From Caminibacter pacificus (GTDB taxonomy: Bacteria > Campylobacterota > Campylobacteria > Campylobacterales > Nautiliaceae), in assembly GCF_003752135.1 (NCBI RefSeq), contig NZ_RJVK01000001.1, positions 434,001-498,000 of the forward strand: a stretch of 64,000 bases of DNA, written 5' to 3'. The notes beneath the pieces were generated by a model, which did not search any database, had not been told where the DNA came from, and was given only the letters and a program-made list of their open reading frames with translations. A program made the translations under genes and the position numbers. Shown here one piece after another: positions 2,169 through 19,126 of the stretch. The number at the start of each line of letters is the position of its first letter. Position 1 is the first letter of the stretch.

Positions 2169-2474
2169 ATGAAAAAAATCGTAGCACTTATGGCTATTTT
2201 CGCAGCTTTCGCATTCGCAGCTGACGGTGACACAATGATTAAAGCATACAGCGTTGTAGCGGCTGTTGTAGGTCTTGGTCTTGCAGCACTTGGTGGTGCA
2301 ATCGGTATGGGACACGCTTCTGCGGCAACTATCGCTGGTACAGCAAGAAACCCTGGAATGGGTGGTAAACTTATGGGTACAATGTTCATCGCATTAGCGA
2401 TGATCGAAGCGCAAGTTATTTACGCACTTGTACTTGCACTTATCGCACTTTACGCTAACCCGTTCTTAGGTTAA
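2169..2474 (+). CDS. atpE: ATP synthase F0 subunit c
   Basis: Proteolipid c subunit of the F1F0 ATP synthase rotor ring, 101 aa. Two hydrophobic helices flank the polar loop with the invariant ARNP (59-62). The ion-binding glutamate is E80 in MIEAQVIYA. The residue after it is Ala, not the Ser/Thr of sodium-binding rings, so proton use is more likely. The N-terminal 18 residues look like a signal sequence (ending AFAFAADG), as in other long c subunits of Campylobacterota. The gene stands alone, apart from the other atp genes, with its own promoter, structured leader, strong AAGGAG and terminator. Confidence 0.97.
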   Translation: MKKIVALMAIFAAFAFAADGDTMIKAYSVVAAVVGLGLAALGGAIGMGHASAATIAGTARNPGMGGKLMGTMFIALAMIEAQVIYALVLALIALYANPFLG

Positions 2475-2479
2475 TCCTC

Positions 2480-2497
2480 AGCCCTTTTCGGGCTTTT
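2480..2497 (+). terminator. Rho-independent terminator of atpE
   Basis: A 5-bp stem AGCCC/GGGCT with a TTTTC loop is followed by TTT, six bases after the atpE stop codon. Confidence 0.75.
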
Positions 2498-2559
2498 AAC
2501 TTTTACTATCAAATAGTGTCAGTCACAATTTAAAAGCTCTAAATTTCCACTATTACTTA

Positions 2560-2588
2560 TTGAAAAAATAAACTTTCTTTGTTATAAT
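2560..2588 (+). promoter_or_regulatory. Sigma70-type promoter of tRNA-Leu
   Basis: TTGAAA (2560-2565) and TATAAT (2583-2588) with a 17-bp spacer, placed 14 bp before the mature tRNA 5' end, the expected position for a short tRNA leader. Confidence 0.75.
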
Positions 2589-2602
2589 TCTACTCCACAC
2601 AC

Positions 2603-2689
2603 GCGGCGGTGGTGGAATTGGTAGACACGCAAGGTTGAGGGCCTTGTGGGCGTAAGCCCGTGAGGGTTCGAGTCCCTCCCGCCGCACCA
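2603..2689 (+). tRNA. tRNA-Leu (anticodon GAG)
   Basis: An 87-nt class II tRNA with encoded CCA. The acceptor stem GCGGCGG (2603-2609) pairs with CCGCCGC (2679-2685), followed by A and CCA. The anticodon stem CAAGG/CCTTG holds the loop TTGAGGG, giving anticodon GAG (reads CUC/CUU, Leu). A long variable arm containing GGGC-GTAA-GCCC and the T arm with GGTTCGAGTCC complete the fold. The long variable arm is normal for tRNA-Leu. Confidence 0.97.
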
Positions 2690-2717
2690 TAATCACCTAT
2701 TTTGACAAAGGCTACCG

Positions 2718-3257
2718 ATGCACTTCTTGCATTCAATCAACAGCGAAACTTTAAATACGATACTTTTAATCGGCGGCGGGATTATTGTATTTTTTATATT
2801 TTTAAAATCTTTATTAAGCAGCGGCTCTTCAAACGACTATTCTAAAAACGGGTATTATTACTATCAAAGACGCGGTTATTCTTACGAAGAGACAAATCGT
2901 AAAAAAGATAACGATTATAGTTATTACGGATACGATAAAAACTATAGCTACGGAAATTACAACTATAATCAAAACTCAAATAACTCTTATAATAACTCCT
3001 CAAATAACAATTCCTCAAACAATTCAAAAAAAGAGTATCAATCTTTCACTTCAAAAAATCCGTATCAAGTATTGGGATGTAAAGAAACGGACAGCACAGA
3101 TACGATAAAAAAAGCATATAAAAAGCTGATAAAAGCATTTCATCCCGATATCATAGCCGGATATAATCTACACGAAGATTTTATTACTTTTGCAAAAATA
3201 AGAACCCAACAAATAAACGACGCTTACAATAAAATAAGAAAACTAAGAGGTTTTTAA
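2718..3257 (+). CDS. Membrane-anchored J-domain protein with Asn/Tyr/Ser-rich linker
   Basis: 179-aa protein with three parts. Residues 14-33 form a single membrane segment. Residues 38-110 are a low-complexity linker rich in Tyr, Asn and Ser. Residues 113-179 are a J domain (NPYQVLGC, KKAYKKLIKAFHPD) with the catalytic HPD at 142-144. Such proteins recruit and stimulate DnaK (Hsp70) at a membrane site. The layout is like DjlA/DjlB co-chaperones but without a TerB-like region. The linker resembles disordered, possibly phase-separating segments. It lies directly after tRNA-Leu and may be read through from that promoter. Confidence 0.85.
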   Translation: MHFLHSINSETLNTILLIGGGIIVFFIFLKSLLSSGSSNDYSKNGYYYYQRRGYSYEETNRKKDNDYSYYGYDKNYSYGNYNYNQNSNNSYNNSSNNNSSNNSKKEYQSFTSKNPYQVLGCKETDSTDTIKKAYKKLIKAFHPDIIAGYNLHEDFITFAKIRTQQINDAYNKIRKLRGF

Positions 3258-4132
3258 GAAGAAAGTTTTTTTCTTAAAAATCTCACTTCTTCCAAAACAC
3301 CCTCTTCGGGGAGATTTAATTCGATATAGTTTAAGATTCTATTTACTACGTTTTGTATTCCTTTTGACTCTTTTATCTCATCAAGTTCGGTATCGATTCT
3401 TTCAAGTACCGCAAGTATGAAAGGAATATTTTTAATCTCTTTTTTGACTAAAACTTCCAAATTAGGATATTTTTCGTCATATATATATGAAAATTTCTCT
3501 TTTTGTTTGTTAAGTTCTTCTTGTTCGAAATCCACAACTTTATCTTTTACCAAAGAATACTCGATAAAATGTTTATTTTTATAGCTCGGTCTGACTCTAA
3601 AATCTCTAAATATTTTTTTCATTTTCTCAAGCGTTTTAAAATCGACCTTTTCTACGTAAAAAAGTACTTTAAAAAGCTCTATTTCATCAAATTCTCCGGT
3701 TTGGGGATTATAAAAAGGCAAAACGTTCGTTTTTTTTAGGAGATTTAGTTTATCTTTTTCGACAACACCGAAAATAATGTTATCTTTTATGGTAAAAATA
3801 GGAGAAATTTTATTTGTCAAATACCCCAAAAGATAATCCTGTTTTATGTTTTGCATATTGGCATCCACCAAAACTATAAAAAAGTTCTCTTTTTTCTTTA
3901 CCAAATCCAAAAAAGCGTTAAAAGTTAAAAACGACCCGTGAAAATAGTGTTCGTTTTTTTCTACTTTTAAAAGCTCAGTTAGTTTTGTTAAGGTTTTTAT
4001 CAGTTCTTGTTTATTTATTTTTCCAGGTTTTAAAAGTTCTTTTATCAACGATATTGCATATTCGTTTTTTTCTTTTATTTCGTTTATGTCGTTTTCGAGT
4101 TTTTTTATCTTATAAAGTAAAACATCAACCAT
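3254..4132 (-). CDS. Uncharacterised protein downstream of recN
   Basis: 292-aa soluble, Lys/Glu-rich protein that I do not recognise. It starts with a heptad-like coiled coil (residues 6-60). A middle alpha/beta region follows (about 80-180, with strands such as FFIVLVDAN and IIFGVVEKD), then a charged helical C-terminus. The middle part faintly recalls a degenerate GGDEF-type fold, but there is no GGDEF motif. Its start overlaps the end of recN by 8 bp, so it is probably translated with recN and nadK. It ends convergently, 4 bp overlapping the J-protein gene. Confidence 0.75.
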   Translation of the reverse strand: MVDVLLYKIKKLENDINEIKEKNEYAISLIKELLKPGKINKQELIKTLTKLTELLKVEKNEHYFHGSFLTFNAFLDLVKKKENFFIVLVDANMQNIKQDYLLGYLTNKISPIFTIKDNIIFGVVEKDKLNLLKKTNVLPFYNPQTGEFDEIELFKVLFYVEKVDFKTLEKMKKIFRDFRVRPSYKNKHFIEYSLVKDKVVDFEQEELNKQKEKFSYIYDEKYPNLEVLVKKEIKNIPFILAVLERIDTELDEIKESKGIQNVVNRILNYIELNLPEEGVLEEVRFLRKKLSS

Positions 4133-10939: not shown

Positions 10940-10970
10940 TGGAAAAATCAACTAAAACAAAGGAGAGAAT

Positions 10971-11552
10971 ATGAAGAAAAAATTATTCTTAATCATCGGA
11001 GCGCCGGGAAGCGGAAAAACAACTGACGCGGAGCTTATCGCACAAAGAAACCCTGATTTGGTAGTGCACTACTCTACAGGTGATTTACTAAGAGCCGAAG
11101 TTGCAAGCGGAAGCGAGCTTGGAAAAGAGATTGCAAGCTACATCGACAACGGAAAATTGGTACCTTTAAATATCGTTATCAATACAATCAAAAGCGCTAT
11201 CGAAAAAGCGGATAAGCCTATCGTATTAATCGACGGATTCCCAAGAAGCGTAGAGCAAATGGAAGCTCTTGATAAAATGCTAAAAGAAAATAACGACATC
11301 GACCTTGTTGCAGTTATCGAAGTGGTGGTAAGCGAAGACGTGGCAAGAGAGAGAGTTCTTGGAAGAGCAAGAGGCGCTGATGATAACGTAGAAGTTTTCA
11401 ATAACAGAATGAAAGTATTTTTAGAGCCGCTTACGGATATCGAAAAATTCTATGAATCTCAAGGAAAACTTATCAAAATCAACGGTGAGAGAACTATCGA
11501 AGAAATCGTAGACGAAATGGAAAAAATCGTAAAAGAAAAAGCAGGAGTGTAA
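10971..11552 (+). CDS. adk: Adenylate kinase
   Basis: 193-aa adenylate kinase (ATP + AMP = 2 ADP). The P-loop GAPGSGKTT is at the N-terminus, [10 protein letters not shown] forms part of the AMP site, and [11 protein letters not shown] is the conserved DGFPR motif. The lid is short and lacks the four cysteines of zinc-type enzymes. AAGGAG precedes the ATG. It overlaps the next gene by one base (TAATG). Confidence 0.97.
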
Positions 11553-12271
11553 TGAAAATATTTCAAGTCATAATCGGCACGGAAATACTCCAAAACAGAA
11601 GAAAAGACAAACATTTCGATTTTCTAAAAGACCTACTATTACAAAGAGGCTACGAACTTTTCGCCTCTTTCATCATAAAAGACGACCCGAAACTCTTAGA
11701 GGATACTTTCAAACTCATAAAAAACACCGAAAATTCGTATCTTTTTTGCTATGGCGGCATAGGTGCTACACCTGATGATTTTACAAGAGAAGTAGCGGCA
11801 AAAGTATTTAGCGATTCGCAAATGGAATATAACGAAGAATTCAAAAATCTTATCGACAAAAAATTCCCCGACGAAGACAATACGAAAAAATACCTTTTAG
11901 CTTATTGGCCGAAAAACTCCAAACCGATTTGGAATAACCCTATTAACGGCTATCCGGGATTTATGGTGGATGAGAGATACTTTTTTATGCCGGGATTTCC
12001 GCAAATGTCTCATCCTATGACCGAATGGATAGTGGATAAATATTTTCCTAAAAAACAACAAAAACAAAGATTTACTCTCATCGCTTATGCAAAAGAGTCC
12101 GAAATGCTCGATATAATGAAAAAAATCCCTCAAAACGTCGAATTTTCCACACTGCCAAAATTAGACTACACCTCCGAAATCTCATTTGCCGGTGAAAACG
12201 CAAAAGAAGTTTTCGAGTGGTTTAAAAAAGAGCTTGATAAAAAATCGATAAGTTACGAAGTGTTACAATAA
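11552..12271 (+). CDS. CinA/MoaB-like molybdopterin-binding domain protein
   Basis: 239-aa protein whose first ~165 residues fit the MoCF-biosynthesis fold (MoaB/MogA/CinA N-domain): VIIGTEIL at the start, the CYGGIGATPDDFTRE motif typical of this superfamily, and a proline-rich YFFMPGFPQM loop. CinA-type proteins act in pyridine-nucleotide salvage or ADP-ribose hydrolysis. The deamidase domain of full-length CinA is absent, so a short CinA-like role is the best label. It is coupled to adk through a 1-bp overlap. Confidence 0.75.
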   Translation: MKIFQVIIGTEILQNRRKDKHFDFLKDLLLQRGYELFASFIIKDDPKLLEDTFKLIKNTENSYLFCYGGIGATPDDFTREVAAKVFSDSQMEYNEEFKNLIDKKFPDEDNTKKYLLAYWPKNSKPIWNNPINGYPGFMVDERYFFMPGFPQMSHPMTEWIVDKYFPKKQQKQRFTLIAYAKESEMLDIMKKIPQNVEFSTLPKLDYTSEISFAGENAKEVFEWFKKELDKKSISYEVLQ

Positions 12272-12304
12272 TCTTACAAAAATTTTACATTTTATATTAA
12301 CCGC

Positions 12305-12338
12305 CCTCTTCTTTTGCCGATTGTAAAAGAAAAAGAGG
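12305..12338 (+). promoter_or_regulatory. Hairpin covering the ribosome binding site of the TPxDVY-repeat gene
   Basis: CCTCTT-CTTTT (12305-12315) pairs with AAAAG (12325-12329) and AAGAGG (12333-12338), with a 3-nt bulge. The paired AAGAGG is the Shine-Dalgarno sequence of the ATG at 12343. If formed, the stem would hold back translation of the first gene of the signalling cassette. Confidence 0.5.
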
Positions 12339-12342
12339 TAAA

Positions 12343-14139
12343 ATGAAAAGGGTTTTGGTATTAATCTTCGCAGTTAACGCACTTTTTGCATATATGGTGA
12401 AAACTCCAAGCGACGTATATTCTTACGCTATGCTTTTAAAACAAAAAGTAAAATATCTAAGAGAAAAAGCGGGCATAAACAAGCCGTTTCCAAACGTTCC
12501 GCCCCAAACGAACAAATACCCGAGACACGTTATTCAAAAAGCACTCGAAATATTAAGCAAAATCAACCTTTACAGAGTGCGTCACGGATACGGAAGTATT
12601 TTTATTCCTCCATATCCGGCGCGTGAAATTACCCCGAGCGACGTTTATGAAATGGTAAAAAGAGACGACGCCGAAATCACCGTCTTTATTAAAGATATCA
12701 AATTTCTAAAAAGCCTCAAACTAAAAAAATACAAAGGCAAAACACCAAACGACGTTTATAGACTTTTGTGGTCTATTTCTCTTGCAATGGACGATTTGTT
12801 GGGTATTCGCGGCTACACCCCTACACAAGTTTACGGGCTTGCGAGCAAACTTCTTAAAATCGTCGAATTTTTAAGACAAACCCAAAATATCTACGTATTG
12901 CCGCCTATGCCGCCAAAACTCCCAAACAGACACCCGAACCACGCTCTTTATAAGTCGTACGAGTTTTTGGATAAAGTCAGAAAAGCTGAAATAAACCTAT
13001 GGATAAACAACCCGACAGACGTACCCAAAACCCCTCATAAAGTTATCACCCCTACCGAAGTTTACGACTCGATACAATACAACATCGCTGAACTACAAAG
13101 AATAAAATACAGACTCGGTGTTGAGAGATATTTTAAAAGCGAAATTCCAAAAGAGACTAAAACTCCAAGTGACGTTGTGCAAATATTAAGCTACGCAAGC
13201 GAAATTATGCCGCTTTTTGATTTCAAAAAGACATTAATCCAATACCCTCCTTCATCTCTTGCAAAAACACCAAATAACGTATACGCGGTAACTCAAGTCA
13301 TCCTAAAAAAACTGAATATCCTAAAAAACCTAAAAGGAATCCAAGCCGTACCGAAAAACCCTCCGTACATCCCGGGACTAAAACCGATTTACGCCTACCA
13401 AAAAGCAATAGAAGCGACCGAAAAAGCTATAAGATTAAAAACTCAAATGGGATTTTACCCATCGCAAGTCCCGGAAGCGCCTCTTAGAAAAATCACACCG
13501 AACGAAGTATATGAAATGGTAATAAGACTTGACGGAATTATTACGATACTTTTGAATTCAATGGGATACAAAACCGAAGAATACATCTATATGACAGACA
13601 AAAAAATACCTCGAGGCAAAACACCAAGTGATGTTTATTTTAACTTATGGAAAATATCAAACACAATCGACGTATTACTAGCAAGCGAATACACCCCGAA
13701 CGAAACATTCCTATTATCTAAAAAAATGAAAAATAAAATTTTAGTGCTATTAAAACATATGCACATCAAAAAAAGCGCAATACAACACACTCTTCAAAGA
13801 AGCGAAACATATATCAACAAAACCCCAAAAGACGTCTTTTTGCTAACGGAAAAGCTCTTTTCTTTAATCAAAAAAACTCAAAAAAGATTTAACATAGAAA
13901 TAAGCAACATCGTAATTCCGCAAGAAAAAATCATAACCCCGAATACCGTTTATAACGCACTTCGTATCACAAACGCGTCTATTAACGAGCTTTTGATCAA
14001 AAAGAATGTAAATGAAGAAGAGATTCCTAAAATCTACGAAATACCGAAAAACAAAACGCCTGACGACGTATATAAAAACGTAGAGGATATGATAGAGCTT
14101 TTAAAACTTCTATTTAACGAGGCGGATTATGAAAATTAG
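12343..14139 (+). CDS. Exported TPxDVY-repeat protein with internal eight-unit duplication
   Basis: 598-aa protein of unknown family. Residues 1-16 are a signal peptide (MKRVLVLIFAVNALFA). The rest is a chain of helical units of roughly 25-45 aa, most opening with TP[ST/N]xVY. Thirteen clear motifs start at residues 21, 97, 134, 159, 236, 274, 309, 385, 427, 451, 494, 532 and 572. Degenerate units near 60, 197 and 347 (e.g. KPIYAYQKA) bring the total to about sixteen. Units 1-8 (21-308) align in order with units 9-16 (309-598) at an offset of 288-298 residues. No cysteine or catalytic motif is visible. Secreted or periplasmic location is inferred. It overlaps the histidine-kinase gene by 11 bp, suggesting a shared sensory function. 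Confidence 0.85.
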   Translation: MKRVLVLIFAVNALFAYMVKTPSDVYSYAMLLKQKVKYLREKAGINKPFPNVPPQTNKYPRHVIQKALEILSKINLYRVRHGYGSIFIPPYPAREITPSDVYEMVKRDDAEITVFIKDIKFLKSLKLKKYKGKTPNDVYRLLWSISLAMDDLLGIRGYTPTQVYGLASKLLKIVEFLRQTQNIYVLPPMPPKLPNRHPNHALYKSYEFLDKVRKAEINLWINNPTDVPKTPHKVITPTEVYDSIQYNIAELQRIKYRLGVERYFKSEIPKETKTPSDVVQILSYASEIMPLFDFKKTLIQYPPSSLAKTPNNVYAVTQVILKKLNILKNLKGIQAVPKNPPYIPGLKPIYAYQKAIEATEKAIRLKTQMGFYPSQVPEAPLRKITPNEVYEMVIRLDGIITILLNSMGYKTEEYIYMTDKKIPRGKTPSDVYFNLWKISNTIDVLLASEYTPNETFLLSKKMKNKILVLLKHMHIKKSAIQHTLQRSETYINKTPKDVFLLTEKLFSLIKKTQKRFNIEISNIVIPQEKIITPNTVYNALRITNASINELLIKKNVNEEEIPKIYEIPKNKTPDDVYKNVEDMIELLKLLFNEADYEN

Positions 14140-16150
14140 TTTGTCGATTAAAATTGCGGTACTTGTAATGATTACGTCTTTTATAGGGATTATAACACTC
14201 TCTTACGTTTCGTATTCTCAAGCCGAAAAAATCTTCATCCAAAACTCAAAAGACAGACTAAACCAAAAAATCAACCAATACACCGAGTTTATAAAAAACC
14301 AAATCACATCTTTCAAATACGACATCAACACCCTTAGCTATAATCCTTTAATCAAAGGACTTGTAAGAGCTTACAACGACCCGTATAAATACGACCCGCA
14401 AGACAACAAAACCTACTCCCAATTCATCCAAGACGTAATTTCGACTTTTAATATTATGCTAACTCAAAACAAATCTTACTATCAAATAAGAATCTTGGAT
14501 ATTAAAGGAAACGAACTTATCAAACTCATAAAAGACAAAAACAAAATCATTTCACTCAAAGAAAATTCACTCCAAAACAAATCGAATATGAAATATTTCA
14601 AAGAAACGATCAAATACCCTATCAATAAAATATACATCTCCGAAATAAACCTCAACAGAGAATACGGACAAATCGAATTTCCTATAAAACCTACAATCAG
14701 AATCGCAAAAATCATCGAAAACAACACAAAAACAGGTGCAATCGTTATTATAAACATCAACATAACGAAAGCATTCGATTTTGAAAAATTAAGAAAATCC
14801 CCTATAAAAACCTATATCGCAAACAACGAAGGGTATTATATTTTCAACTCCACAAACCCGAATAAAGAGTTCGGATTCGAGTTTGGCAAAGATTTTAAAA
14901 TAACTAACGACTTTCCTTTTATCAAAGAGCTTTACAACTCGACAAAAGACGTTATTTCATTTATCGACACAAAACAAAACAAAATTTACGAAGCGAAAAA
15001 AGTATATCTCTCACCCGATAGGTTTTTAGTGATTCTTCAAGTGGCAAACGCTTCACTTTTCAAACAAAAAGCAAACGACTATTTCAACACGATTGCAATT
15101 TATATTTTCGGAAGTTTGATTTTTATTACGTTAATTACGATTATTTCGGTAAAAATCCTAACCAATCCTATCAAAAAACTAACCGAAACGGCTGATAAAA
15201 TAGCAAAAACAAAAGGTAAAAAACATATAAAAATAGACATAAAATCAAATGATGAAATCGGAGAGCTCGCCAATGCTTTTCAGATTATGCTAAACGCTCT
15301 GACCAAATCCCAAAAAGAGATAGAACATTTCGCTCAAAACCTTGAAAAAGAAGTTGAGAAAAAGACAAAAGAACTTCAAAAAATAAACAAAAACCTCCAA
15401 AAAATGGTAGAAGAGAAAGTAAACGAACTAAGAGAAAAAGACAAAGCCCTTATTCAACAATCAAAAATGGCGGCAATGGGTGAGATGATAGGAGCAATAG
15501 CTCATCAATGGCGCCAACCGCTAAACGCTTTGGCTTTAAATATTCAAATGCTTGAGGATTTAGCGGAAGACGAACACCTTGATAAGGAAACCCTAAAAGA
15601 ATTTATCAAAAAAAATATGGAAACTATCAAGTTTATGAGTAATACGATTGATGATTTTAGAAACTTTTTTAGAAAAGATAAGGAAAAAACGATTTTCGAT
15701 ATCAAAGATATAATCCAAAACACTCTTCATTTACAAAGAGCTCAGCTGAAAAACCACGATATCGAAGTAATCGAAAACTTAGAATCGGCAAAAATCGAAG
15801 GATATAAAAACGAGCTTATGCAAGCGATATTAAATATCATCTCAAATGCAAAAGACGCAATTGACGAGCGTAGAAAAAAAGAAAAAATAAAAGGAATTAT
15901 CAAAATTTCGACAAAAAAAGACGGCGATAACGTTATAATTGAAATCGAAGACAACGGAGGAGGAATAGACCCTCACTATCTTGATAAAATATTCGAACCG
16001 TATTTCACAACCAAAGAAGAAGGAAAAGGTACGGGTATGGGGCTATATATGGTAAAAGAAATCATCGAAAGAAACGGAGGTAAGATTGAAGTTGCCAACA
16101 CAAAAGAAGGTGCTAAATTCAAAATCATATTAAAGGCGAAACGTGATTAA
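14129..16150 (+). CDS. Sensor histidine kinase with periplasmic sensor domain and HAMP
   Basis: 673-aa membrane kinase. A first membrane segment lies at about residues 7-27 and a large periplasmic domain, probably dCache-like, at about 30-320. A second segment (FGSLIFITLITIISVKIL), a HAMP linker and a long coiled coil follow. The HisKA H-box is MGEMIGAIAHQWRQPLNAL, with the phospho-accepting H459. The HATPase domain has ILNIISNAKDAI (N box), DNGGGI (G1) and GKGTGMGLYMVK (G2). It should phosphorylate the response regulator encoded by the overlapping next gene. Its ATG overlaps the repeat-protein gene by 11 bp. Confidence 0.94.
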   Translation: MKISLSIKIAVLVMITSFIGIITLSYVSYSQAEKIFIQNSKDRLNQKINQYTEFIKNQITSFKYDINTLSYNPLIKGLVRAYNDPYKYDPQDNKTYSQFIQDVISTFNIMLTQNKSYYQIRILDIKGNELIKLIKDKNKIISLKENSLQNKSNMKYFKETIKYPINKIYISEINLNREYGQIEFPIKPTIRIAKIIENNTKTGAIVIININITKAFDFEKLRKSPIKTYIANNEGYYIFNSTNPNKEFGFEFGKDFKITNDFPFIKELYNSTKDVISFIDTKQNKIYEAKKVYLSPDRFLVILQVANASLFKQKANDYFNTIAIYIFGSLIFITLITIISVKILTNPIKKLTETADKIAKTKGKKHIKIDIKSNDEIGELANAFQIMLNALTKSQKEIEHFAQNLEKEVEKKTKELQKINKNLQKMVEEKVNELREKDKALIQQSKMAAMGEMIGAIAHQWRQPLNALALNIQMLEDLAEDEHLDKETLKEFIKKNMETIKFMSNTIDDFRNFFRKDKEKTIFDIKDIIQNTLHLQRAQLKNHDIEVIENLESAKIEGYKNELMQAILNIISNAKDAIDERRKKEKIKGIIKISTKKDGDNVIIEIEDNGGGIDPHYLDKIFEPYFTTKEEGKGTGMGLYMVKEIIERNGGKIEVANTKEGAKFKIILKAKRD

Positions 16151-17285
16151 TCGGTATTTAAAAAACCTCATTTGTTTATACGTAGAAGACGACGAAATGA
16201 TACGGGATATATTCGCATTGATGCTAAAACGATACTTTAAAGAAGTGATAATAGCGACAAACGGAAAAGAAGGTTTGGAACTATTCAAAACCCGCAAACC
16301 CGATATAATCATAAGCGATATAAGAATGCCAATTATGGACGGCATAGAAATGGCACGCGATATAAAAAAAATAGACCCGAGCGCTTATATAATTTTCGTA
16401 ACCGCATTTAGCGATAGCGAATACCTCCAATCAGCCCTTGAACTCGGAGCGGAAGGCTACATAACAAAACCGGTGGAAAAAGAAAAACTCCTGCAAAAAC
16501 TAAACTTTTTAGCAGAAGTAATCAAAAACAAAAGAGAAAACGAAGAGCTCACAAACGCTTTGAAAGTTATTTTTGAAAACCAAACCGAAGCTACGGCACT
16601 TTATATAGATAAAAAACTAAAACTTGCAAACAAAAAATTCAAATTCTTGCTCGGACAATTATCTCTTGAAGAATTAATTGAAAAACTGAATATAAAACTT
16701 AATGAAAAAAAACAGATAGTAAAATACGACGATAAAATTTTAAAAATTAAAATCATTAAATTCAACCACAACTCCATTTTGATTTTCATAAACGATATTA
16801 CGAAATACGAAGAAAAAATCCAAAAAGACCCTCTAACAGGAGTATATAACAGAAATATTTTGGAAAAAATTCTAAAAGAGAATATTAATAAAAATATTTG
16901 CGTAATTTTTGCAGACATCGATCATTTCAAAAAAATAAACGACACATACGGACATCAATTCGGTGATACGGTACTCCAAACTTTCGCACAAATTTTAAAA
17001 AATTCACTTAGAAAAAATGATATAATTGTACGCTACGGAGGCGAGGAGTTTTTGATTTATATTCAAAACGTCGAATCGATCAAATATGCCCAAAAAATCG
17101 CCGAACAACTAAGAAAAGTCGTAGAAAATTTCGACTTTAACGGCAAAAAAATAACGGCTTCTTTTGGTGTGTGTTGTAAATACATCTCATCAAAAGAGAG
17201 TTTTGAAGAATTAATCAAAAACGCCGACAAAGCCCTTTATAAAGCAAAAAATAACGGAAGAAATCGAGTTGAGGTGTGCGAATGA
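16143..17285 (+). CDS. Response regulator with GGDEF output (diguanylate cyclase)
   Basis: 380 aa in three parts. The receiver domain (about 8-125) has acidic pocket D16/D17, phospho-acceptor D59 (ISDIRMPIMDG) and K109. A linker (about 135-222) resembles a small PAS-like fold. The GGDEF domain (about 223-380) has an intact GGEEF at 299-303 and an inhibitory-site RxxD at 290-293. It should make cyclic di-GMP when phosphorylated, with product inhibition. The start is GTG at 16143, 8 bp inside the kinase gene and preceded by AAAGGCG. Confidence 0.93.
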   Translation: MINRYLKNLICLYVEDDEMIRDIFALMLKRYFKEVIIATNGKEGLELFKTRKPDIIISDIRMPIMDGIEMARDIKKIDPSAYIIFVTAFSDSEYLQSALELGAEGYITKPVEKEKLLQKLNFLAEVIKNKRENEELTNALKVIFENQTEATALYIDKKLKLANKKFKFLLGQLSLEELIEKLNIKLNEKKQIVKYDDKILKIKIIKFNHNSILIFINDITKYEEKIQKDPLTGVYNRNILEKILKENINKNICVIFADIDHFKKINDTYGHQFGDTVLQTFAQILKNSLRKNDIIVRYGGEEFLIYIQNVESIKYAQKIAEQLRKVVENFDFNGKKITASFGVCCKYISSKESFEELIKNADKALYKAKNNGRNRVEVCE

Positions 17286-17743
17286 TATTGTATTACGGAT
17301 TAATTGCCGTGAGTGTTGTTATTATAGCTATCGCTATAAAAAACTTCTATTCGGCTACAAAAATCGAAAAAAATATGGATAATTATCTTTTTGTCGTAAC
17401 TTCGTCAAAAGCATATTATATTGGAGCTACGCTTTTTGCGCTTGCATTGCTTGTAATTACCGCTTTTCAGGCGATGCCTTACGTTTTTGATATTAGAGTG
17501 TTTTCTATTGTACTGTTTTTCGGTAGTATATTTTTATTATCTTTTTCTCACTATGTCTATCACACGCTTGCAAGCAAAAAGCTTAACGATTACGAAGAGT
17601 TTTTTAAACAATTCGGCGTGGATTTAAACAACAAATGCGAGAAATTGATGTTAAAATATATCTATTCCAAAGAAAAAGACCTTAAAAAGGTAAAAGAGGT
17701 ATTTGAAATGAATAAGGAAAAGTGCAAGGAGTTTAAAAAATAA
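17282..17743 (+). CDS. Small membrane protein of the TPxDVY signalling cassette
   Basis: 153-aa protein with three hydrophobic segments (about 3-23, 48-68 and 75-95) and a charged Lys/Glu-rich cytoplasmic tail. I do not recognise the family. The ATG at 17282 forms an ATGA overlap with the diguanylate cyclase stop and has GAGGTG 8 bp upstream, which decided the start. Its position as the fourth coupled gene suggests a partner or modulator of the kinase/cyclase pair. Confidence 0.8.
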   Translation: MILYYGLIAVSVVIIAIAIKNFYSATKIEKNMDNYLFVVTSSKAYYIGATLFALALLVITAFQAMPYVFDIRVFSIVLFFGSIFLLSFSHYVYHTLASKKLNDYEEFFKQFGVDLNNKCEKLMLKYIYSKEKDLKKVKEVFEMNKEKCKEFKK

Positions 17744-17977
17744 CTACTTCTTCTCGCACTTTAGTTTTTCTATATTCTTGATTTGCTCCACTCTTTCAAT
17801 CAAACTATCAAGCTCTTTTAACTGCTCTTCGCATTTTTGTTTGAGTTCGTCTCTTTTTTCTTTTAGGATTTGAAGTTGTTTTTCGATTTGCTCCATAGGA
17901 ATTTCACAATTTTTTGCCGCTTCTTCCTCTTTTTCTAAAGCCCACTCCGTCATTTTTTTAATAAATTCTTTTAGCAT
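17744..17977 (-). CDS. Small coiled-coil protein
   Basis: 77-aa, highly charged protein made almost entirely of heptads (EQIEKQLQILKEKRDELKQK and similar), with three cysteines. I do not recognise it. The ATG at 17977 was chosen over an upstream possibility because GGGGC/AAGG lies just before it. Its stop codon abuts the stop of the convergent membrane-protein gene with no spacer. Confidence 0.65.
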   Translation of the reverse strand: MLKEFIKKMTEWALEKEEEAAKNCEIPMEQIEKQLQILKEKRDELKQKCEEQLKELDSLIERVEQIKNIEKLKCEKK

Positions 17978-18033
17978 TTTTGCCCCTTTTTGCTTATTAT
18001 ATCTTATAATTAACAAAATAAAAAGGAGAAAAA

Positions 18034-18387
18034 ATGAAAATTGCACTCCCTACCAACGACAAAAAAACATTAGCGCCCCGTATCGGAATGGCAAAAGGAT
18101 TTTTAGTCATAGATACCGACACTAACGAAACCACTTATATTCAAAACGAAGCATTGAAAGAATATATAAAAGAGCACAAAAAACTCCACGGAGACTGCGG
18201 AGAACACGGTCTTGGAGTCGGACAAGTATTACCTAAAAAACTAAAAGAATTAGGAGTCGAAATATTCGTAGCTAAATTTTTCGGAGAAGGAATGCTCGGT
18301 AATTTAGACCTATATCAAATCAAAACGTATGTCTCAAAAAAACATAAAATAAAAGACGTTATCGAGGAGGTACTAAATGGTGATTAA
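18034..18387 (+). CDS. NifX/NifB-C-terminal-like (dinitrogenase Fe-Mo cofactor) domain protein
   Basis: 117-aa single-domain protein of the Nitro_FeMo-Co family: beta-strand MKIALPTND, RIGMAKGFLVID, a CGEHGLGVGQVLP loop and FFGEGMLGNL. Family members bind iron-sulfur or metal-cofactor fragments; many occur outside nitrogen fixation with unknown role. It is a paralogue of the gene at 23369. TATAAT (18005-18010) and AAGGAG precede it. It overlaps cobB by 11 bp, so the two are coupled. Confidence 0.85.
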   Translation: MKIALPTNDKKTLAPRIGMAKGFLVIDTDTNETTYIQNEALKEYIKEHKKLHGDCGEHGLGVGQVLPKKLKELGVEIFVAKFFGEGMLGNLDLYQIKTYVSKKHKIKDVIEEVLNGD

Positions 18388-19126
18388 CGACTACCAAACA
18401 GCCGCCAAAATCATAAAAGATTCAAAATTTCCCGTAGCTTTCACGGGAGCCGGTATTTCGGTTGAGAGCGGAATCCCGCCTTTTAGGGGTCCTACGGGAC
18501 TTTGGAGCAAATACGACCCGAAAATTTTAGATATCGATTTTTTTATGAGTAATCCGGCCGAGAGTTGGAAATATATAAAAGAGATTTTTTATGACTATAT
18601 GGGAAACACCCAACCAAACGACGCACATAAATTCCTCGCTTGGCTTGAAGAAATAGGAAAACTAAAAGGCGTAATCACTCAAAATATCGATAATCTTCAT
18701 CAAAAAGCGGGAAGCAAAAAAGTAATAGAATTTCACGGAACGGCAAACAAAATGGAGTGTATTGATTGCAAAAGAAAATTTTACTCAGATTCTATTTCTC
18801 TTGAAACCCTACCTCCTCTATGCCCCGAATGCCAAGGAATATTAAAGCCTGATTTCGTATTTTTCGGCGAACCCATTCCACCAAAAGCTTTTGAAGAATC
18901 AATAAGACTTTGCGAAAATGCCGACTGCCTCATTGTAGTCGGTACCACGGGAGAAATAATGCCCGCAAGCCAACTACCGATACTCGCAAAACAAAACGGA
19001 GCGAAAATCATCGAAATAAATATCGAGCCGTCCAACTATACAAATAGTATCACGGACATTTTCCTAAACGACAAAGCCACAGTTGCAAGTAATAAATTAA
19101 AAGAAGAACTAAAAGGGATTATATAA
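18377..19126 (+). CDS. cobB: NAD-dependent protein deacylase, sirtuin (CobB/SIR2)
   Basis: 249-aa class III-type sirtuin. The NAD fold has FTGAGISVESGIPPFRG, ITQNIDNLHQ and the catalytic histidine in EFHG. The zinc site is formed by CIDC and CPEC. Sirtuins remove acyl groups from lysines using NAD, often controlling acetyl-CoA synthetases. It is coupled to the NifX-like gene, with GAGGAGG before its ATG. Its 3' end meets the HNH gene inside a 16-bp palindrome. It looks like a metabolic deacylase, not a SIR2 defence effector. Confidence 0.93.
   Translation: MVINDYQTAAKIIKDSKFPVAFTGAGISVESGIPPFRGPTGLWSKYDPKILDIDFFMSNPAESWKYIKEIFYDYMGNTQPNDAHKFLAWLEEIGKLKGVITQNIDNLHQKAGSKKVIEFHGTANKMECIDCKRKFYSDSISLETLPPLCPECQGILKPDFVFFGEPIPPKAFEESIRLCENADCLIVVGTTGEIMPASQLPILAKQNGAKIIEINIEPSNYTNSITDIFLNDKATVASNKLKEELKGII

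Follow-up and report, generated by a model that had tools for sequence, protein, structure and literature searches.

What does an exported repeat protein of no recognizable family do in front of a transmembrane histidine kinase and a diguanylate cyclase, when its gene overlaps that of the kinase? This question is raised by a locus within a 64,000-nucleotide stretch of Caminibacter pacificus DNA (hereafter, the window), which lies on contig 1 of a 1.86 Mb genome in 8 contigs (genome G000). An earlier note, made from the sequence alone, had described four genes here as a cassette and had suggested that the repeat protein senses or presents an outside signal to the kinase. After comparison with other loci of the phylum, our best reading is that the repeat protein, termed rep here, is a new partner-protein family within a known signaling architecture. 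We consider it reasonably probable, at roughly 0.6, that rep is a periplasmic co-receptor and acts upon the sensor domain of the receptor whose gene comes next.

Organization of the locus

The genes in question are all encoded on the forward strand and consist of rep (12343-14139; 598 aa), a transmembrane histidine kinase (14129-16150; 673 aa), a response regulator/diguanylate cyclase with a GTG start (16143-17285; 380 aa), and a small membrane protein conserved in the host family (17282-17743; 153 aa, ATG at 17282), referred to below as the 3-TM gene. Their open reading frame coordinates match the overlaps of 11, 8, and 4 bp that had been claimed for the rep/kinase, kinase/cyclase, and cyclase/3-TM junctions, respectively, the last of which becomes 10 bp if an upstream GTG at 17276 serves as the start. 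Hydropathy yields a single N-terminal hydrophobic segment for rep, two membrane segments for the kinase, and two to three with overlapping peaks for the product of the 17282 gene, and finds no segment in the cyclase; the positions of all four genes are as described previously. On the other flank of the locus lies a gene encoding a MoCF_biosynth domain (moco; 11552-12271, forward strand; Pfam PF00994), which is syntenic with the 17282 gene in genomes G002 and G012. A predicted RNA hairpin at 12303-12356 covers the rep ribosome-binding site with a z of -2.0 and was set aside at this score, none being found before homologous genes. Within scans for promoters and terminators, promoter-like sites were no commoner than in shuffled sequence and the count of terminator-like sites was close to expectation.

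The kinase has two membrane segments around a large outside domain, followed by Pfam HAMP, HisKA, and HATPase domains. Its H, N, G1, F, and G2 boxes are intact, the motifs AHQWRQPLN, NAKDAI, DNGGGI, and GKGTGMGL being present. The outside domain belongs to the double-Cache-type sensor family PF21623 (HK_sensor_dom_bact), which it matches at 52.6 bits against a cut-off of 27 over kinase residues 103-263 (14435-14917, forward strand), and its nearest solved structures are 2p7j and 3lid of V. parahaemolyticus (E 2e-10). The cyclase is composed of REC, linker, and GGDEF (Pfam Response_reg and GGDEF), and its phospho-acceptor motif ISDIRMP, its I-site RKND, and its GGEEF at residues 299-303 are all intact. 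Both the kinase with a large periplasmic domain and the response regulator with GGEEF and I-site had been recognized in the earlier note and are borne out by these matches. Judged by domains and motifs, the pair would constitute a two-component system with c-di-GMP output and a PleD/WspR-like regulator.

Arrival of the module as an insertion

Comparison with relatives indicates a unit of three genes instead of the four-gene cassette proposed earlier, which was rejected given an empty site in G002 and the widespread occurrence of the fourth gene in the host family. In G002, a member of the same genus, the moco and 3-TM genes abut, the former overlapping the latter by ATGA, and the two are likewise adjacent in G012. 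By blastn, positions 898-2197 and 2214-3708 of the G002 locus (L186) correspond to window positions 10955-12251 and 17282-18732, respectively, leaving 16 bp between the two aligned blocks of G002 as opposed to ~5.03 kb in the window (12252-17281, forward strand). Furthermore, rep was not found in 20 other genomes of the host family, congeners among them, and its relatives with 60-69% identity occur in other families; the 3-TM gene is present in 15 of the 21 genomes that represent this family, including all 12 of the near-complete ones. Since the moco and 3-TM genes abut in G002 and G012 and rep is missing from relatives, the rep-kinase-cyclase segment at 12252-17281 was gained as a block, the alternative of loss in all relatives being less simple. 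The fourth gene is a resident in front of which the three-gene insertion landed, and its 4-bp overlap with the cyclase is a product of the insertion point and no sign of a fourth member. In line with arrival by transfer, the window kinase is the only PF21623 protein in G000. A phage or plasmid origin was rejected, as rep has no match among phage or plasmid records, and viral contigs searched with the 300-aa form of rep also yielded no match.

Sequence, units, and predicted fold of rep

The rep protein begins with a putative Sec-type signal peptide (residues 1-16, MKRVLVLIFAVNALFA; 12343-12390, forward strand), which was assigned from sequence and hydropathy with its cleavage placed by eye. It has no lipobox cysteine, nor a Cys anywhere in the protein, and is probably exported as a soluble periplasmic protein. 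The motif TPx[DENQT][VT][YFV] occurs in 13 copies, compared with a mean of 0.014 and a maximum of 2 in 20,000 shuffles, and a search of the open-access literature for the TPxDVY-type motif found nothing. Searches of Pfam, NCBIfam, PHROGs, and PDB sequences returned no family match of credible score, in agreement with the previous description of a repeat protein of unknown family. Weak PexRD54_WY and uL13-type matches were far under cut-off and not credible, and membership in a known helical-repeat family was rejected.

Alignment resolves a unit of ~290 residues, present twice in the ~600-aa proteins and once in the ~300-aa proteins. In the window, unit A was delimited by half-unit alignment at 12391-13251 and is followed on the same forward strand by unit B at 13252-14136. 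On the unit tree, the A units (one clade, 99 SH-aLRT), the B units, and the single units form one group each, although the single units of G224 are placed there by way of long branches. Because each kind of unit groups together, a single old duplication would explain the long form of rep. AlphaFold2 modeled unit B with a mean pLDDT of 90.0 and a pTM of 0.85 from an input of 6 rows (an A half and a B half from each of three proteins). The model has eight helices of ~20 residues and one short helix, and the helix starts coincide with TPx[DE]VY-type motifs, which suggests that the motif may serve as a helix-capping box. Modeling of the full-length protein from 3 rows gave a poor result (pLDDT 64, pTM 0.43), and for this reason the one-unit model alone was used. 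Foldseek with the unit B model found no match in PDB or BFVD at E<=0.001, although the lack of a match does not in itself establish a new fold. The window protein shares the features of its family, i.e. a signal peptide, a ~290-aa unit with eight capped helices in one or two copies, and a membrane receptor encoded directly downstream.

CpxP is also all-helical, and the predicted all-helical structure of rep favors the explanation that rep is a CpxP-like modulator, which would have no ligand of its own, keep the receptor off, and depart upon envelope disturbance. We regard such a role as unlikely, and it is opposed by the results of the searches, as rep has no match to CpxP/Spy in Pfam and none to PDB chains by sequence or by Foldseek at E<=0.001. 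A second explanation inverts the relationship between the two proteins: rep could be a monitored target, such as an envelope scaffold, whose amount or state the receptor reports and whose levels or state the c-di-GMP output then adjusts. The duplicated helical units and the predicted pI, which is mostly 9-10 across the loci, would suit a scaffold binding anionic envelope material, and the genomic evidence presented below is identical to that for a co-receptor. However, no envelope partner is known and the pI varies, with values of 5.7-6.3 in L120, L124, and L125; we judge this explanation very improbable.

rep loci across the phylum

When the phylum is sampled evenly with 397 genomes, 10 of them contain rep and 60 contain PF21623 (97 loci), the rep homologues being patchily distributed within this one bacterial phylum. 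Ten of the 13 rep genes in this sample lie directly upstream of a PF21623 receptor on the same strand, and the other 3 all belong to G224; for rep to adjoin 10 of only 97 PF21623 loci is beyond chance. With deeper samples added, 47 rep loci were read, among which related genomes are over-represented, so that they are not independent and comprise about ten family codes. A membrane receptor gene is found directly downstream of rep in 45 of the 47, and 42 of these 45 receptors possess a PF21623-type sensor. Of the 42, 39 have a recognizable kinase domain, two are cut or broken before that domain, and one is a SpoIIE protein. In most loci a diguanylate cyclase response regulator comes next, and the 11-bp overlap of rep and receptor is seen in 10 loci. 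The earlier note had asked whether a dCache-type kinase always lies next to the repeat protein; what proved nearly constant is the receptor and, in 42 of 47 loci, its PF21623 sensor, but not kinases as such. It had also held that homologues usually found without kinase neighbors would count against its proposal, and the 39 loci with a kinase domain show the opposite.

Two arrangements account for the majority of the loci. Type I (22 loci, including the window) consists of a double rep, a receptor kinase, and usually a REC-(PAS)-GGDEF protein, and type II (19 loci) consists of a single rep, a ~1170-aa hybrid kinase (GAF, REC), and, if the contig extends far enough, CheB-CheR and REC-GGDEF. The type II CheB-CheR fusion lies between the hybrid kinase and REC-GGDEF genes in L049, L050, L106, L114, L115, L218, and others, a hint that a kinase may adapt through methylation. 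In L051 (G342:C38, 4880-9083), a SiaB-family gene, a single rep, and a PF21623-GAF-SpoIIE phosphatase are encoded consecutively. This locus resembles SiaABCD in that rep is flanked by the gene of a SiaB-family kinase and that of a SiaA-related phosphatase, and it could represent a Sia-like switch with a rep partner. Unlike SiaABCD, the L051 phosphatase scores under the SiaA equivalog cut-off, and the window has a histidine kinase in its place. In the three G224 loci, two reps adjoin PAS/GGDEF(-EAL) receptors and one adjoins a chemotaxis receptor; the latter, L128 (G224:C28, 5628-8341), is the only MCP pairing seen and combines a 299-aa rep with a 605-aa chemotaxis receptor (HAMP, MCPsignal) through a 4-bp overlap. 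Several loci are disrupted: rep is interrupted by a stop in L127 (7553-9367), the receptor gene of L123 (2527-6937) is in two reading-frame pieces with a shortened rep, and a GGDEF-type receptor gene is split in L054 (11197-12950). The locus L055/L011, with 42% over 48 residues, was judged to match by chance and left out.

Two loci are exceptions to the arrangement. In L215 (1770-2690), rep has no receptor neighbor and converges on a REC-GGDEF gene; in L217 (2575-4284), rep has degraded motifs and no clear signal peptide and is followed by an unrelated gene. These two genes favor the explanation that rep is a separate envelope or surface protein, structural or adhesive, that is co-regulated with the receptor without touching it. 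Adjacency need not mean partnership, as three solute-binding proteins of P. aeruginosa whose genes adjoin kinase genes failed to activate those kinases, and neighboring genes are therefore not always partners (PMC11113362). Nevertheless, an order that is kept in nearly all loci, in several families and before different outputs, and often with an identical overlap, is difficult to reconcile with a bystander, as is the tendency of rep to track the sensor domain. We accordingly consider a separate surface protein quite unlikely.

Linkage of rep to the sensor rather than the output

Only about one tenth of the PF21623 receptors of the phylum have rep, and 40 neighborhoods of PF21623 receptors from loci unlinked to rep contained no rep upstream. 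On the sensor tree, the rep-linked label requires 3 changes compared with 24 in shuffles, and type I and type II form separate supported groups; this tree wrongly took in L127_7553, the row with the stop-interrupted rep, which was left out of the residue-conservation comparison. Among type I loci, the partial correlation of rep distances is 0.71 with the sensor versus 0.13 with the kinase, and among type II loci it is 0.68 versus 0.53, the bootstrap 95% intervals of the difference including 0, so that it is not significant. It is only suggestive, then, that rep distances track the sensor more than the kinase. Type I rep sequences share a mean identity of 54%, compared with 40% for the accompanying sensors, and such conservation of rep beyond that of its sensor is more readily explained by a constrained binding surface than by a loosely acting modulator of the CpxP kind.

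The rep-linked sensors keep the PF21623-wide core residues R121, G127, E129, Y156, S171, N176, and R191, which suggests that they may still bind a small ligand directly, with rep adding to that. The same residues favor a CpxP-like modulator, since the sensor could bind the ligand and rep would only tune it. In three of the receptors next to rep, the periplasmic domain is of an unrelated kind. Because the output varies while the sensor is constant, rep belongs with the periplasmic half of the receptors and with no single output; its association is not with kinases as such, as rep also precedes a SpoIIE phosphatase, two GGDEF-type receptors, and a chemotaxis receptor.

Proposed role and comparison with known systems

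Several lines of evidence lead us to favor a co-receptor. Nearly all loci keep a receptor directly downstream of rep, and the constant part of this receptor is its periplasmic half, since PF21623 is combined with kinase, hybrid kinase/GAF/REC, or GAF/SpoIIE outputs. The recurring 11-bp overlap points to translational coupling, the rep-linked sensors cluster on the tree with rep more conserved than the sensor, and rep, kinase, and cyclase entered the genome together. Against a co-receptor stand L215 and L217, which indicate that rep can persist without a receptor neighbor, although L217 looks degraded, as well as the kept PF21623 core residues, by which the sensor may bind a ligand without rep, and the three rep-adjoining receptors with unrelated periplasmic domains. 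As a co-receptor, rep would be exported and fold into one or two eight-helix units, and outside the membrane it would bind the double-Cache sensor, either bringing a bound signal or tuning the response. The state of the sensor would presumably be relayed through HAMP to the kinase, leading to phosphorylation of the REC domain, whereupon the GGEEF domain would produce c-di-GMP subject to product inhibition via the RKND I-site.

The closest parallels are LuxP-LuxQ, TorT-TorS, and HptA-HptS, in which a transmembrane kinase is encoded together with a periplasmic protein that acts on its periplasmic domain. Unlike LuxP, TorT, and HptA, rep is predicted to be all-helical, and neither Pfam and PDB sequence searches nor Foldseek related it to solute-binding proteins, with no Pfam or NCBIfam family over cut-off and no PDB match. 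LuxQ and HptS have double-PDC/Cache sensors (PMC8534201), and the Cache domain of LuxQ is itself listed as not binding a ligand (PMC8694187), in contrast to the rep-linked sensors with their kept core residues. The sensor of the window kinase is in the same PF21623 domain family as VP0354 (vpHK1S-Z8; PDB 3LID, 2P7J), a double PDC/dCache structure that holds phosphate (PMC8534201, PMC8694187). VP0354 differs in being a sensory box/GGDEF protein, and about nine tenths of the phylum's PF21623 receptors lack rep. CpxP, which regulates negatively from the periplasm and binds both a sensor domain and misfolded proteins, offers a precedent for a modulator, and rep is proposed, like CpxP on CpxA, to be a periplasmic adaptor on a kinase sensor domain (PMC12802237). 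The two differ in gene order, as cpxP is usually divergent from cpxAR (PMC12802237) whereas rep is overlapping and in the same direction as its receptor gene, and rep has 8 or 16 capped helices. Thematic searches of the open-access literature found no described system with this content.

For most bacterial receptors the signal is not known, and a recurring exported partner tied to one sensor-domain family would provide a handle on what PF21623 receptors sense. If contact between rep and the sensor is true, rep would add to the few periplasmic co-receptors a family that is distinct from solute-binding proteins and had no solved-structure match in the searches performed here. It is possible, though doubtful at present, that rep founds a class of general periplasmic co-receptors, a modular helical adaptor outside the solute-binding proteins that serves all main kinds of transmembrane receptors, namely histidine kinases, SpoIIE phosphatases, c-di-GMP enzymes, and chemoreceptors. 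In that case, a duplicated rep may act as one molecule per receptor dimer and a single rep as two molecules. The rep family would likewise offer a handle on how one periplasmic protein feeds phosphorelay, phosphatase, c-di-GMP, and possibly chemotaxis outputs.
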